A stretch of DNA of 64,000 bases from Micromonospora sp. WMMD1155 (GTDB taxonomy: Bacteria; Actinomycetota; Actinomycetes; Mycobacteriales; Micromonosporaceae). The position numbers were made by a program, and so were the translations under genes. The stretch covers positions 2,640,501-2,704,500 of the forward strand of contig NZ_CP120742.1 in assembly GCF_029581275.1 (NCBI RefSeq). Direction: 5' to 3'. This document shows positions 4,969 through 8,885 of the stretch, piece by piece. Position 1 is the first letter of the stretch. Each line of letters opens with the position of its first letter. The notes below the pieces were generated by a model. It saw only the letters and a program-made list of their open reading frames with translations. It searched no databases and was not told the DNA's origin.

Positions 4969-5445
4969 GCCAGGGGAGTTCGGTACGGCTTGATCACTGA
5001 TCCGTGCGGCAGACCCTCCGGGCGCACGGAACAGGGGTTGGCGTTCGTGCCGCCGAAGACGCACTGGTCGAGCCTCCACTGCCGCATGGCCGGGCTGGAT
5101 TGGCTGCACCTACCCGACCTGCGGTACGCCTCGGCCACGTTCTGCCGGCGCGGGCTCGCCAGGCTGCCTCGGCCATTGACCGAATTCTCGGCCAGGAGGG
5201 GACGGCATGACCGACTTGGCTGTACAAATGGCTGTACTCAGATCGAGATCAACCGGGGAAAGTGCTGGTGGGCCGGAGGTATCACCATGCGAACCACGTC
5301 GCCACGATCACCGGTGATCCGCTCCCGCTACGCCGCACCGCTCCTGAGCCTGATCGACAGTTCAAGGCCAGACGTCGGACCATCTGACGAGCAGCTCCCC
5401 GGCGAGCTTGTACAATTTATTGTACGTAACGCTGTCAACGCCGGC
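4969..5445. other. Remnant-like stretch left of the IS21 element, no intact gene
   Basis: About 480 bases with several short frames but none with a family I recognise or a convincing start. It contains two pairs of TGTAC repeats (5221-5237 and 5409-5425), each with 12-base spacing. The right end is the insertion point of the IS21 element. It most likely holds decayed coding DNA plus the original control region of the yefM-yoeB pair. Confidence 0.5.
5408..5425 (+). promoter_or_regulatory. YefM-type operator with embedded -10, cut off from yefM by IS21
   Basis: TTGTACAA (a palindrome) is followed after four bases by TTGTAC; TACAAT inside it fits a -10 hexamer. The TGTACA core is the known recognition core of E. 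coli YefM. The site ends 20 bases before the left end of the IS21 element, and yefM starts 33 bases after its right end, so without the element the operator would lie about 50 bases before yefM. Assignment to YefM is an inference. Confidence 0.5.
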
Positions 5446-5502
5446 TGAACTTTGACCCCTCTGTTCCGGCCGAATTTTGACCCCCTCGCTGGTTGTTGAT
5501 GT

Positions 5503-6294
5503 TCAGTCGTTGGTCTTGGTGGCTGCGGGAACGCGGCCGAGGTCGCGGTCTTTAAGCCGGTAGCTGTCGCCCTTCATCGAGATGACCTCGGCGTGGTGGA
5601 CGAGGCGGTCGATCATGGCTGCGGCGACGACGTCGTCGCCGAACACTTCGCCCCAGCGGCCGAAGGGCTTGTTGCTGGTGACGATCAGCGAGGCTCGTTC
5701 GTAGCGGTTGGAGACGAGCTGGAAGAACAGGTTCGCCGCTTCGGCTTCGAAGGGGATGTAGCCGACCTCGTCGACGATCAGCAGCGGGATCCGGCCGAGC
5801 TTCACGAGCTCGTCTTGCAGTCGGCCGGCGTGGTGGGCGTCGGCGAGGCGGGACACCCATTGGGCGGCGGTGGCGAACGCGACCCGGTGTCCGGCCTGGC
5901 AGGCCCGGATCCCCAGGCCGATGGACAGGTGGGTCTTGCCGGTGCCGGGCGGGCCCAGGAAGACGACGTTCTCCTTCGACGCCACGAAGTCGAGGGTGCC
6001 CAGGTGGGCGATCGTCTCCCGCTTCAGAGAGCGTTGGTGCTCGAAGTCGAACTCCTCCAGGCTCTTGCGGGCGGGGAACCTGGCTGCCCGGATACGTCCC
6101 TCGCCGCCGTGGGCTTCGCGGGCGGCGACTTCGCGTTGCAGGCAGGCGGCGAGGAACTCCTCGTGCGTCCATGACTCGGCCCGGGCCCGCTCCGCCAGGC
6201 GTTCGACGGAGGCAGCGAGGGACGGCGCCTTGAGGGCGCGGGTGAGGAACGCGATCTCCGAGGCGACGTTGCGGCTGGTCTTGGCGACCATCAC
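5503..6294 (-). CDS. istB: IstB helper ATPase of the IS21 element
   Basis: 263 residues. IstB is the AAA+ helper that binds DNA and delivers target to the IstA transposase. The Walker A motif GPPGTGKT lies at residues 114-121, followed by a Walker B LLIVDEVGYIPF and a sensor-like SNKPFGRWGE, all in the family order. Length is normal for IS21 IstB (about 250-265). The GTG start overlaps the istA stop by four bases (GTGA), so the two are translationally coupled as usual. Confidence 0.95.
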   Translation of the reverse strand: MMVAKTSRNVASEIAFLTRALKAPSLAASVERLAERARAESWTHEEFLAACLQREVAAREAHGGEGRIRAARFPARKSLEEFDFEHQRSLKRETIAHLGTLDFVASKENVVFLGPPGTGKTHLSIGLGIRACQAGHRVAFATAAQWVSRLADAHHAGRLQDELVKLGRIPLLIVDEVGYIPFEAEAANLFFQLVSNRYERASLIVTSNKPFGRWGEVFGDDVVAAAMIDRLVHHAEVISMKGDSYRLKDRDLGRVPAATKTND

Positions 6295-7520
6295 GCAGCC
6301 ACCTCGACGTCCAGGCCGAACATGCGGTCGTAGTCGCTCAACGGCCGGCGTTCGACCTGGGCGTCGACCGCGGTCGTCGGCTTGTGTTGGGCAGCGACGC
6401 GCAGGTCGGCGGCGGCTTGCCGGTGGGCAGGGTCGGTGATGCTCTGATGGCTTGCCCAGCAGCGGTCATGTCGGGCCACGGGCCGGCCGTCGGAGACCAC
6501 CGTCACGTGGTCGCAGTCGGCGGTGACCTCAACCCGCCTGCCGACCACGGATGGGTGCACCGAGTAGTCGTTGCCGTCCAAGCGGACGTAGTGATCGCGG
6601 GGCAGCCGGGTGGCCTGGCGCCAGCCGACCACCGGCGCGACCGGTGGCAGTGACAGCATCGCGGCCCGGTCGGCGTCCCACCGGTCCAGCGGGCGGCAGC
6701 CCAGCATCCGGTGTTGGCGGTTGTTCGCCCCCACCAGCCAGTCGGTGAGCTGGGTGTTGAAGTCGCCGGGCGAGGCGAAACGGCGTCCGGGCAGGAACGA
6801 GGTTTCCAGATAGCCATTGGCCCGCTCGACCAGGCCCTTGGCCTCCGGGTCCGCCGGTCGGCACTGAATCACCTTGATGCCGAGGGTGCCGCGGAAGGCG
6901 TTCATCGCCTCGGTCAGCTGCGGCCTGCCAGCCCGCCACTGCCCGACGGCGGACTCGTTGTCCCACACCAACGCCTTGGGCACCCGTCCCCAGCCGGAGA
7001 TCAGCGTCCAGTGCCCGACCAGCAAGTCCGGTGACTGCCGGGTCGGGATCATCACCGCTGACAGCCACCGCGAATACCCGGACACCATCACCAGCACCGG
7101 CGGCCGGCCGACCTGCCCGAAGCCCAACGGCACGTCCGCCGGCGGGAACCACAGATCACACTGCGCCAACTCGCCCGGCAGATACTCCGTCCGCTGGGCC
7201 GGGTCCGGGCGGCGGAACAACGGCCGCAACTGCTGCACCCGATCGGCGAACACCGTCTTGCCGCGGGCCCACCCAACCCGCTCCATGATCACCGTCGTCG
7301 GCATGTCCGGGAACTCCGCCAACAACGCCCGGATCTGCGGCTCGACCGCGTCCACGATCGAGCCCTTCGCCGCCCGCTGATAGCGAGGCGGCTCATGACT
7401 GGCCAAGGCCTTACGCACCGTGTTCCGCGAGACCCCCAACCGGCGACAGATGGCCTTGATCGCCATCCGCTCCGCCCGGTGCAACCGACGGATCTCCGCC
7501 CAGTCCTCCACGCTCAGCAC
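6291..7520 (-). CDS. istA: IstA transposase of the IS21 element
   Basis: 409 residues from GTG. The N-terminus has a helix-turn-helix (IKAICRRLGVSRNTVRKAL) that binds the terminal repeats. The catalytic core follows: first Asp in AQCDLWFPP, second Asp in ALVWDNESAVG, and Glu in LVERANGYLET, the D-D-E triad of the IS21 integrase fold. The C-terminal part (KVE-like beta barrel, DHYVRLDGNDYSVHP) is also family-typical. No stop or frameshift is visible. The gene reads leftward and couples to istB. Confidence 0.95.
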   Translation of the reverse strand: MLSVEDWAEIRRLHRAERMAIKAICRRLGVSRNTVRKALASHEPPRYQRAAKGSIVDAVEPQIRALLAEFPDMPTTVIMERVGWARGKTVFADRVQQLRPLFRRPDPAQRTEYLPGELAQCDLWFPPADVPLGFGQVGRPPVLVMVSGYSRWLSAVMIPTRQSPDLLVGHWTLISGWGRVPKALVWDNESAVGQWRAGRPQLTEAMNAFRGTLGIKVIQCRPADPEAKGLVERANGYLETSFLPGRRFASPGDFNTQLTDWLVGANNRQHRMLGCRPLDRWDADRAAMLSLPPVAPVVGWRQATRLPRDHYVRLDGNDYSVHPSVVGRRVEVTADCDHVTVVSDGRPVARHDRCWASHQSITDPAHRQAAADLRVAAQHKPTTAVDAQVERRPLSDYDRMFGLDVEVAA

Positions 7521-7610
7521 CTCCCGATGCTTCCGGAAGGGGTCAAAATTCAGCCGGAACCACGGGGTCAGTTTTCAGGCGGAGCCGACAAACGCTTGGA
7601 AGGCAGCAGC

Positions 7611-7895
7611 ATGCGCACCGTTCCCTACTCAGAAGTCCGGCAGAACCTGGCCAAGATGCTCGACCATGTCGTGGACGACGCCGAGGAAGTGGTGGTCACC
7701 CGTTCCGGCCGGGAGGCCGCGGTCATCATCTCGCTGCGCGAGTACGAGTCGTTGAAGGAGACGGCCTACCTGATGGCCAGCCCCGCCAACGCGCGCCGTC
7801 TGAATGAAGCCGTCGAAGAGCTGCGCAACGGGGGTGGGGAGATGCACGACCTGATCGACCCCGACGCCGGTTCAGGCGAGGCGTCGGCAGCGTGA
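7611..7895 (+). CDS. yefM: YefM/Phd-family antitoxin
   Basis: 94 residues. The N-terminal region RTVPYSEVRQNLAKMLD is the Phd/YefM DNA-binding fold; the Asp/Glu-rich C-terminus would wrap the toxin. It neutralises YoeB and represses its own operon together with it. The ATG at 7611 has GGAAGG eight bases upstream. The stop overlaps the yoeB start by four bases. The IS21 right end lies only 33 bases upstream, so the native promoter and operator have probably been displaced (see the site at 5408). Confidence 0.92.
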   Translation: MRTVPYSEVRQNLAKMLDHVVDDAEEVVVTRSGREAAVIISLREYESLKETAYLMASPANARRLNEAVEELRNGGGEMHDLIDPDAGSGEASAA

Positions 7896-8146
7896 AGGTC
7901 CAGTTCGCCAGCCGAGGCTGGGAAGACTATCTGACCTGGCAACGAGATCGTCAGATGCTCAAACGAGTGAACACCTTGATCGAGGACATCCGACGCAACG
8001 GCCACCAAGGCATCGGCAAACCGGAGCAGCTCCGCGGAAACTGGGCAGGATTCTGGTCGAGACGCATCGACCAGGAACACCGCCTTGCATACCGGATCAT
8101 GGACGACACAGTGCAGATCGCGCAGTGCCGCTACCACTACGAATGA
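7892..8146 (+). CDS. yoeB: YoeB-family mRNA interferase toxin
   Basis: 84 residues, the exact usual size. YoeB cuts mRNA at the ribosomal A site. Residues matching the catalytic set of E. coli YoeB are present: Glu45 in GKPEQL, Arg64 in QEHRLAY and His82 in the C-terminal CRYHYE. The GTG start overlaps the yefM stop as GTGA, so synthesis follows the antitoxin. The toxin looks intact, which implies that yefM is still expressed in spite of the IS21 insertion in front of it. Confidence 0.93.
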   Translation: MKVQFASRGWEDYLTWQRDRQMLKRVNTLIEDIRRNGHQGIGKPEQLRGNWAGFWSRRIDQEHRLAYRIMDDTVQIAQCRYHYE

Positions 8147-8315
8147 GGTAGAGGACCACGCCCTCAGCGGAGGGACACCGCCCTGCGGCGGCTGCGTACC
8201 GTCGTCATGCGACTCGCCGTACGACAGGTGGAAGTGCCCAGAGCGCTGCGCCGATCAGATCCGCAAGCGTTGATCGGAGTGCGGCTGCCGTCGGACGGCT
8301 GTTACGAGCCGCCGA

Positions 8316-8715
8316 TCAGTCGGGCTGGCGCGACCAGGACAGGGGCCATGCCTCCAGGCGAAGGACGATCTGCTGGAGGCTTGCCTCAAAAGCCTCGTCG
8401 CCAAGACCGCGCTTTCGGCGACGGGACCACAGCTCGCTCAGGTCGTCCTCGATCTCCCCTAGCTCCATGAGTCGATCGGCGGATGCAAGAGCGTTCTCAA
8501 TCAGCTCGTCCCGACTGCCGGACCTGATGGTCAGCTTGTCGGCAAATACGGCGAGCGTGCAGCAGCGCCCCGGCAGCGATGCCGCGCCCGGCCGCCTCAA
8601 CGGCGCGCAGGGTTGCCTCCGGGCCTTGGACGATTTCGGTGAACAAGCCAAGTAGCCGTGAGTTGCGCACGAGCGACTCGTCAGCCATCGTCCGCACCTT
8701 CGCTGTGTCGCTCAC
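8316..8715 (-). pseudogene. Frameshifted small gene, function unknown
   Basis: Two overlapping minus-strand frames make one plausible protein: the first runs from the GTG at 8715 (SDTAKVRTMADESLV) to AAGALL near 8560, the second continues as TLAVFADKLTIRSGSRDEL to the stop at 8316. Removing one C near 8558 would join them into about 132 residues rich in helix. The second half is charged (DLSELWSRRRKRG). I do not recognise the family. It could be a true pseudogene next to mobile DNA or a sequencing error. It lies between yoeB and the tRNA-Ala, convergent to yoeB. Confidence 0.5.
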
Positions 8716-8812
8716 GCCGCTGCGACCCTGGCCGGTCTACCGCTGTACTTTGCTGCTGCACCGGCCTCGATCACGGCAAAATACACCGACGGGGCGTTGA
8801 CTTGCGGGAGAG

Positions 8813-8885
8813 TGGAGCCCAGGGGACTCGAACCCCTAACCCCTGCCTTGCAAAGGCAGTGCTCTGCCAGTTGAGCTAGGGCCCC
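8813..8885 (-). tRNA. tRNA-Ala (anticodon TGC)
   Basis: 73 bases fold as a standard cloverleaf. The acceptor stem GGGGCCC/GGGCTCC has the G3-U70 wobble pair that identifies alanine tRNAs; the anticodon stem-loop is CTGCC-TTTGCAA-GGCAG; the T arm contains GTTCGAGTC. The CCA end is not encoded. Its 3' end points left into the accessory zone, the usual orientation for a tRNA used as an integration site. Confidence 0.97.

Follow-up and report, generated by a model that had tools for sequence, protein, structure and literature searches.

The window, by which we mean the whole 64,000-nucleotide stretch of DNA analyzed, carries a complete toxin-antitoxin operon on the forward strand. Its first gene (7611 to 7895; 94 amino acids) encodes a YefM antitoxin (PF02604, E value of 1.2e-26) and its second (7892 to 8146; 84 amino acids) a YoeB toxin (PF06769, E value of 2.9e-33). 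An earlier note on this DNA had held both frames to be intact, and both open reading frames are indeed whole. In the Pfam search, a PhdYeFM antitoxin is followed by an overlapping YoeB toxin, the gene order of yefM-yoeB operons. The best solved relative of YefM is E. coli YefM (2a6q), and YoeB matches the E. coli YoeB of 2a6q with an E value of 1.2e-27; its residues E45, R64, H82, and Y83 align with E46, R65, H83, and Y84, which we take to be the catalytic residues of the E. coli toxin. Domains, gene order, overlapping frames, and aligned YoeB catalytic residues are shared with yefM-yoeB of E. coli and of S. lividans/S. coelicolor. At an E value of ≤0.001, the 7.34-Mb single-contig genome holds a single YefM match. 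A ribosome-binding site, GGAAGG (7598 to 7603, forward strand), can be read from the sequence ahead of yefM, and most relatives have GGGAGG at about the same position.

The IS21-family element and the insertion at tRNA-Ala

To the left of the ribosome-binding site lies an IS21-family insertion sequence (IS) of 2158 bp (5433 to 7590, reverse strand) with TGTC/GACA ends, two direct repeats in subterminal position on either side, and the target duplication AACGC on its left (5428 to 5432) and right (7591 to 7595). Both of its genes are intact, lie on the reverse strand, and overlap: istB (5503 to 6294) encodes the ATPase (IstB_IS21, PF01695, E value of 2.7e-80), and istA (6291 to 7520) encodes a transposase with an rve/Mu-type C domain, the Mu-transpos_C_2 match (2.1e-28) being above its Pfam cut-off and the rve match (1.8e-07) just below it. 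Overlapping istA-istB frames, repeated terminal sequences, and 5-bp target duplications are common to this element and the IS21 family, and we found nothing unusual in it. The genome holds six near-full copies, the window copy included, every one of 2158 bp; the 5-bp duplications are exact at five of them, and the sixth lies within a GC-rich simple repeat where the duplication length is unreadable. One copy other than that of the window (L006; G000:C1:4195298-4197454) is located inside a long GGGGCGC simple repeat. Only 3 to 4 mismatches separate the window copy from each of the other five; five positions vary among the copies, and two of them, 6287 and 7439, are private to the window. So few differences indicate that the family spread recently, which does not in itself date the window insertion. 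Taken alone, the IS event is ordinary.

The operon and the IS are contained in a larger insertion at the 3' end of a tRNA-Ala(TGC) gene (8812 to 8885, reverse strand). In three of the eight relatives compared at this tRNA-Ala (G006, G009, and G016), window position 5271 is joined directly to 8812, with a 4-base overlap between the GTGG of the left junction (5268 to 5271) and that of the right junction (8812 to 8815). It follows that the 3540 bases from 5272 to 8811 are a GTGG-bounded insertion at the tRNA-Ala 3' end. Four further relatives (G002, G004, G022, and G024) have the tRNA-Ala without the cassette and without a matching left flank, and the last one (G001) carries yefM-yoeB beside the same tRNA-Ala without the upstream end repeat. 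Copies of 44 to 46 bp of the 3' part of tRNA-Ala (8812 to 8855) occur in G006, G016, and G021, kilobases away from the full gene; with such displaced copies in several relatives, the tRNA-Ala looks, on sequence grounds, like an integration hot spot for islands.

The right part of the insertion is not in its original state. The homology of the window unit to other toxin-antitoxin units ends at 8226, whereas in five relatives with the unit (L028, L055, L064, L025, and L074) the shared sequence runs on for about 90 bp in the stretch shown, and in L062 for about 20 bp. Between yoeB and tRNA-Ala, from 8228 to 8306 on the forward strand, there is a remnant of a PIN (VapC-like) toxin gene (VEVPRALRRS.PQALIGV, in the open reading frame 8207 to 8470), whose peptide resembles, by eye, the PIN protein of L162 (PF01850 for the L162 protein) and whose DNA has matches in L038 and L074. 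The homology stop together with the PIN fragment makes the window insertion a rearranged remnant in which the operon is intact and split by the IS. The GTGG at 8228 was considered as a second cassette boundary and rejected, given the further homology in those five relatives and in L062; this GTGG also lies within the PIN gene remnant. In Micromonospora marina (L052 to L055), four contigs end in the same cassette, a pattern expected for two near-identical copies.

The putative operator and expression of the split operon

To the left of the IS, at 5408 to 5425 on the forward strand, lies a pair of GTAC palindromes, TTGTACAATTTATTGTAC, a putative YefM-type operator. The earlier note had placed the IS21 element between such an operator and yefM-yoeB, and this arrangement is confirmed (site, 5408 to 5425; IS, 5433 to 7590; genes intact), while its distances need correction: the site ends 7 bp and not 20 bases before the left IS end, yefM starts 20 bp and not 33 bases after the right end, and with the IS removed the site would extend from 40 to 22 bp upstream of the ATG instead of lying about 50 bases from it. 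The GTAC centers, at 5411.5 and 5423.5, are 12 bp apart, and the pair comprises a perfect palindrome, TTGTACAA, and an imperfect one, TTGTACGT. Two GTAC cores 12 bp apart are described in yefM-yoeB/axe-txe of E. coli, Enterococcus, and Streptomyces (PMC7730913, PMC3303803). In particular, many bacteria are described as keeping the TGTACA core of yefM-yoeB and the distance of 12 bp between centers, and in E. coli the -10 box lies under the first palindrome and the start is surrounded by the second (PMC7730913); the Streptomyces site has one GTAC palindrome across the putative -10 and, 12 bp further downstream, an imperfect second one (PMC3303803). The window site has the Streptomyces layout, and its pair of palindromes with 12-bp spacing is shared with the operons of E. 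coli and S. lividans/S. coelicolor. Its second core is imperfect (TGTACG) and its adjacency to yefM has been lost to the IS; the 2158-bp IS that separates palindromes and genes sets the window apart from these operons.

Sequences upstream of yefM in relatives connect the site with the gene. The comparison comprised 41 distinct 60-bp sequences, namely, the window, 28 close relatives (at least 86% identity), 9 of a family at 56 to 59%, and 3 remote ones; matches not starting at YefM residue 1 or covering fewer than 70 residues were left out, so that relatives with a broken or partial yefM (e.g., L042, L072, and L074) are uncounted. The presence of the site next to yefM in relatives lacking the IS had been set beforehand as a test. 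Within 4 mismatches, it stands directly before yefM in 27 of the 28 distinct close sequences, 12 being identical to the window site and 15 differing from it by 1 to 4 changes that spare both GTAC cores; in the 28th (L041), the copy in this position is degenerate and its first core is lost. None of these 28 has an IS in the 60 bp upstream of yefM. In 26 of the 27, the site starts at -36 to -40 from the start codon (-50 in L066), a range that includes the IS-free window distance of 40 bp. In all nine members of the 56 to 59% family, GTACA(A/G)TTT(T/C)CTGTAC occupies much the same position, and the site is absent from the 60 bp upstream of the remote YefM relatives L075, L123, and L096. Furthermore, TTGTACAATTTATTGTAC occurs once in the 7.34-Mb genome with up to 3 mismatches allowed (reversed pattern, 0), and TTGTAC-N6-TTGTAC is expected 0.0 times per 64 kb (200 first-order Markov sequences). 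That the palindromes are the operator of something else and precede yefM by coincidence is very hard to credit when the site is in place in 27 of 28 close relatives, has a counterpart in nine of nine members of the more distant family, and is unique in the genome; nothing was found in favor of such a coincidence. Thus, the site belongs to yefM as far as sequence comparison can tell, and its assignment as the operator is well supported.

A second pair of GTAC cores (5222 and 5234, also 12 bp apart; GGCTGTACAAATGGCTGTAC) is present in the left flank at 5221 to 5238. It was rejected as a second operator of the window yefM-yoeB since it also occurs in L117 and L118, both without a cassette at tRNA-Ala.

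TANNNT is the actinobacterial -10 consensus, and only two such hexamers occur on the forward strand from 5380 to 7610, both within the operator. One of them, TACAAT (5411 to 5416), is the candidate -10 of the native promoter, and the 56 to 59% family reads TACAGT or TACAAT at its position. By the geometry of E. coli, the promoter would lie within the operator, so that the two have probably been cut from the genes jointly, both to the left of the IS; the transcript would start near 5423, and the IS would sit about 10 bases into the leader. The earlier note had taken the IS or its end as the probable source of expression. Outward promoters at IS ends are common, and both frames are intact, as would suit an operon made constitutive and free of self-repression by a promoter at the right end of the element. 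However, the IS has no TANNNT on its forward strand, the TA dinucleotide nearest to yefM on its upstream side is at 7412, and scanning 5180 to 8320 for sigma-70 promoters returned 0, the scan being weak evidence because it missed the native promoter as well. We therefore did not retain an IS-end promoter as the leading view and consider it unlikely, even though the lack of TANNNT in the IS may be compatible with other sigma factors or with long read-through.

The course of events that we consider probable has two steps. The yefM-yoeB operon would have been brought by a small cassette that integrated at the tRNA-Ala 3' end, and an IS21-family element would later have transposed into the 5' leader of yefM, leaving promoter and operator on one side of the IS and the ribosome-binding site on the other. 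The YefM-YoeB complex could still bind the operator on the left, which would now control a transcript that must first cross 2.16 kb of IS, antisense to istA-istB. It follows that yefM-yoeB is probably silent or receives weak expression from read-through; a strong promoter in the IS is probably not what drives it. Since antitoxin and toxin share one operon, such a decoupling would lower both together and need not be lethal. The regulatory consequence is, on the reading of this sequence, probably not the one that the earlier note had guessed: that the genes lost their expression or came to depend on read-through is as probable as that they were freed from repression. This course of events agrees with the uninterrupted relatives, the target duplication, the unique operator, the intact genes, and the tRNA-Ala sites without insertion. 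Against it count the best -35 of the presumed native promoter, with only 2 of 6 matches, the scan that returned no promoter, the variation of the site among relatives, and the rearrangement of the window unit, whose homology breaks where that of relatives continues.

It is also conceivable, with somewhat better prospects than a promoter in the IS, that the operon is dead weight, silenced by the insertion and with frames not yet decayed. The closeness of the other five IS copies to the window copy would fit this possibility, as would a cassette already broken at 8226 beside a toxin gene remnant; on the other hand, read-through from the native promoter is possible, and neither gene has decayed.

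End repeats, cargo, and tRNA junctions across the genus

The window insertion, regarded above as a small cassette later split by the IS, carries at its left side a cassette end repeat (5268 to 5347, reverse strand), which, read from the tRNA, is ...GTGGTTCGCATGGTGATACCTCCGGCCCAC; at the left end of the insertion, the repeat has the sequence GTGGGCCGGAGGTATCACCATGCGAACC.... With up to 3 mismatches, a 28-mer of the end repeat was found in 71 of 151 genomes of the genus, the window's own included (reversed control, 0), and across the order in 35 of 397 genomes and 3 of 85 genera (control, 0). In 12 loci chosen for repeat clusters, the copies are 0.6 to 4.1 kb apart, often about 1 kb, and in one orientation; three opposite-strand matches (L164, L167, and L171) are weak, with 6 to 7 mismatches. 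The 74 distinct junctions mostly have CCAC ends, the starts opposite them fall into several classes, and in the consensus about 60 bp before CCAC are well conserved across end repeats. In folding, an alignment of 64 end repeats surpasses 99 of 100 column shuffles, and it gives no clear two-sided covariation; attC-like folding was rejected on this weak fold signal.

The cargo was examined on 118 open reading frames of the array zones, chosen by codon bias and grouped into 56 clusters, of which 20 were profile searched. Seven of the ten representatives of larger clusters belong to toxin-antitoxin families (PhdYeFM, three; ParE, one; PIN, three), the other three being Gp49-like, HTH_3, and SEC-C. 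Among ten open reading frames from singleton clusters, no toxin-antitoxin family was above the cut-off; six are without a match, and the rest have DUF2786, helicase, sigma factor, and acetyltransferase domains. Judged by sequence, the yefM-yoeB unit is part of a genus-wide set of small, toxin-antitoxin-rich units with a shared end repeat.

The position of the arrays was examined in 52 loci (L161 to L212), the 12 mentioned above and 40 from the list of the genus repeat search. A tRNA was called downstream of the repeat in 20 of the 52, one of these calls (L203, 101 nucleotides) being doubtful. All called tRNAs lie downstream of the repeat and on the opposite strand, with 0 upstream and 0 on the same strand; in most of the 40 loci, the fetched stretches cover more sequence on the downstream than on the upstream side, which biases the side but not the strand. 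The anchors are the 3' ends of tRNA-Ala, -Met, and -Lys. A motif search run without a control found a fragment of a tRNA 3' end downstream in 6 of the 32 loci that lack a full tRNA (L166, L173, L188, L194, L196, and L208), and 26 of the 52 fetched stretches contain neither tRNA nor fragment.

The sequence following the CCAC of the tRNA matches internal cassette starts of other loci at 13 of the 20 junctions, the window being counted among the 20, and two of these matches (L187 and L195; E value of 0.009) are weak. Among tRNA-Ala flanks from repeat-free loci used as a control, 5 of 31 match, or 5 of 23 when seven that represent the same locus twice and the window's own are removed. Four of the five matching control flanks, and one of the 13 junctions (L207), have the sequence of L184 as their match, which appears to be the native flank of a tRNA, moved to the distal end of an array. 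The window's own junction is among the seven without a match to internal cassette starts; by eye only, it resembles the starts of L148 and L150.

Relation to known mobile systems

Integron arrays, CALINs, and superintegrons consist of tandem units in the same orientation, with an end site, a fixed site of addition, and rich toxin-antitoxin cargo, and the core site of integrons is GTTRRRY. The units described here resemble them in their tandem arrangement with a single orientation, in the conserved site (about 60 bp) that each has on one side, in toxin-antitoxin cargo, and in addition next to a fixed site. However, that fixed site is a tRNA 3' end, the core is CCAC/GTGG and not GTTRRRY, the end site shows no clear two-sided covariation, and no linked integrase was found. 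The tRNA-integrating islands of actinomycetes (AICEs) and tycheposons also use tRNA 3' ends, and partial tRNA copies are present near six arrays and in relatives of the window; different from these elements, the units are small and tandem, no integrase was found for them, and they have only 4 bases in common with the tRNA junction.

Tyrosine recombinases (PF00589) are present in 16 of 16 array genomes, with many matches, mostly distant from the repeats; among the matches listed, only those of G145 and G114 are within 5 kb of a repeat, and the PF00589 matches in the 16 genomes did not single out one integrase linked to the arrays. A crude motif search for an integron integrase in the 52 array loci gave four unconvincing matches. 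Mobility of the IS200/IS605 type was rejected, as Y1 transposase (PF01797) occurs in 1 of the 16 array genomes. In the literature searched (titles and abstract openings, including few subscription papers), we found no description of tRNA-anchored toxin-antitoxin arrays.

It is possible to hypothesize, tentatively and with somewhat less than even confidence, that the Micromonospora group has an integron-like system not described so far, in which a recombinase would add toxin-antitoxin-rich cassettes in fixed orientation at the 3' (CCA) ends of tRNA-Ala, -Met, and -Lys, the window yefM-yoeB being one such cassette, later split by IS21. For this enzyme, the fixed site would be the 3' end of the tRNA, and the cassette site would be the tRNA-end-like repeat (GGTTCG...CCAC).

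Through the IS insertion, a natural event, an autoregulated toxin-antitoxin operon has probably been parted from its promoter and operator, and, with the operator and the genes intact and uninterrupted relatives at hand, the need for autoregulation becomes testable. It is the tRNA-anchored cassette setting, rather than the IS event, that deserves follow-up. If toxin-antitoxin cassettes use tRNA 3' ends as fixed sites, the actinomycetes would possess a cassette array system of their own, and the missing recombinase would be a concrete target.
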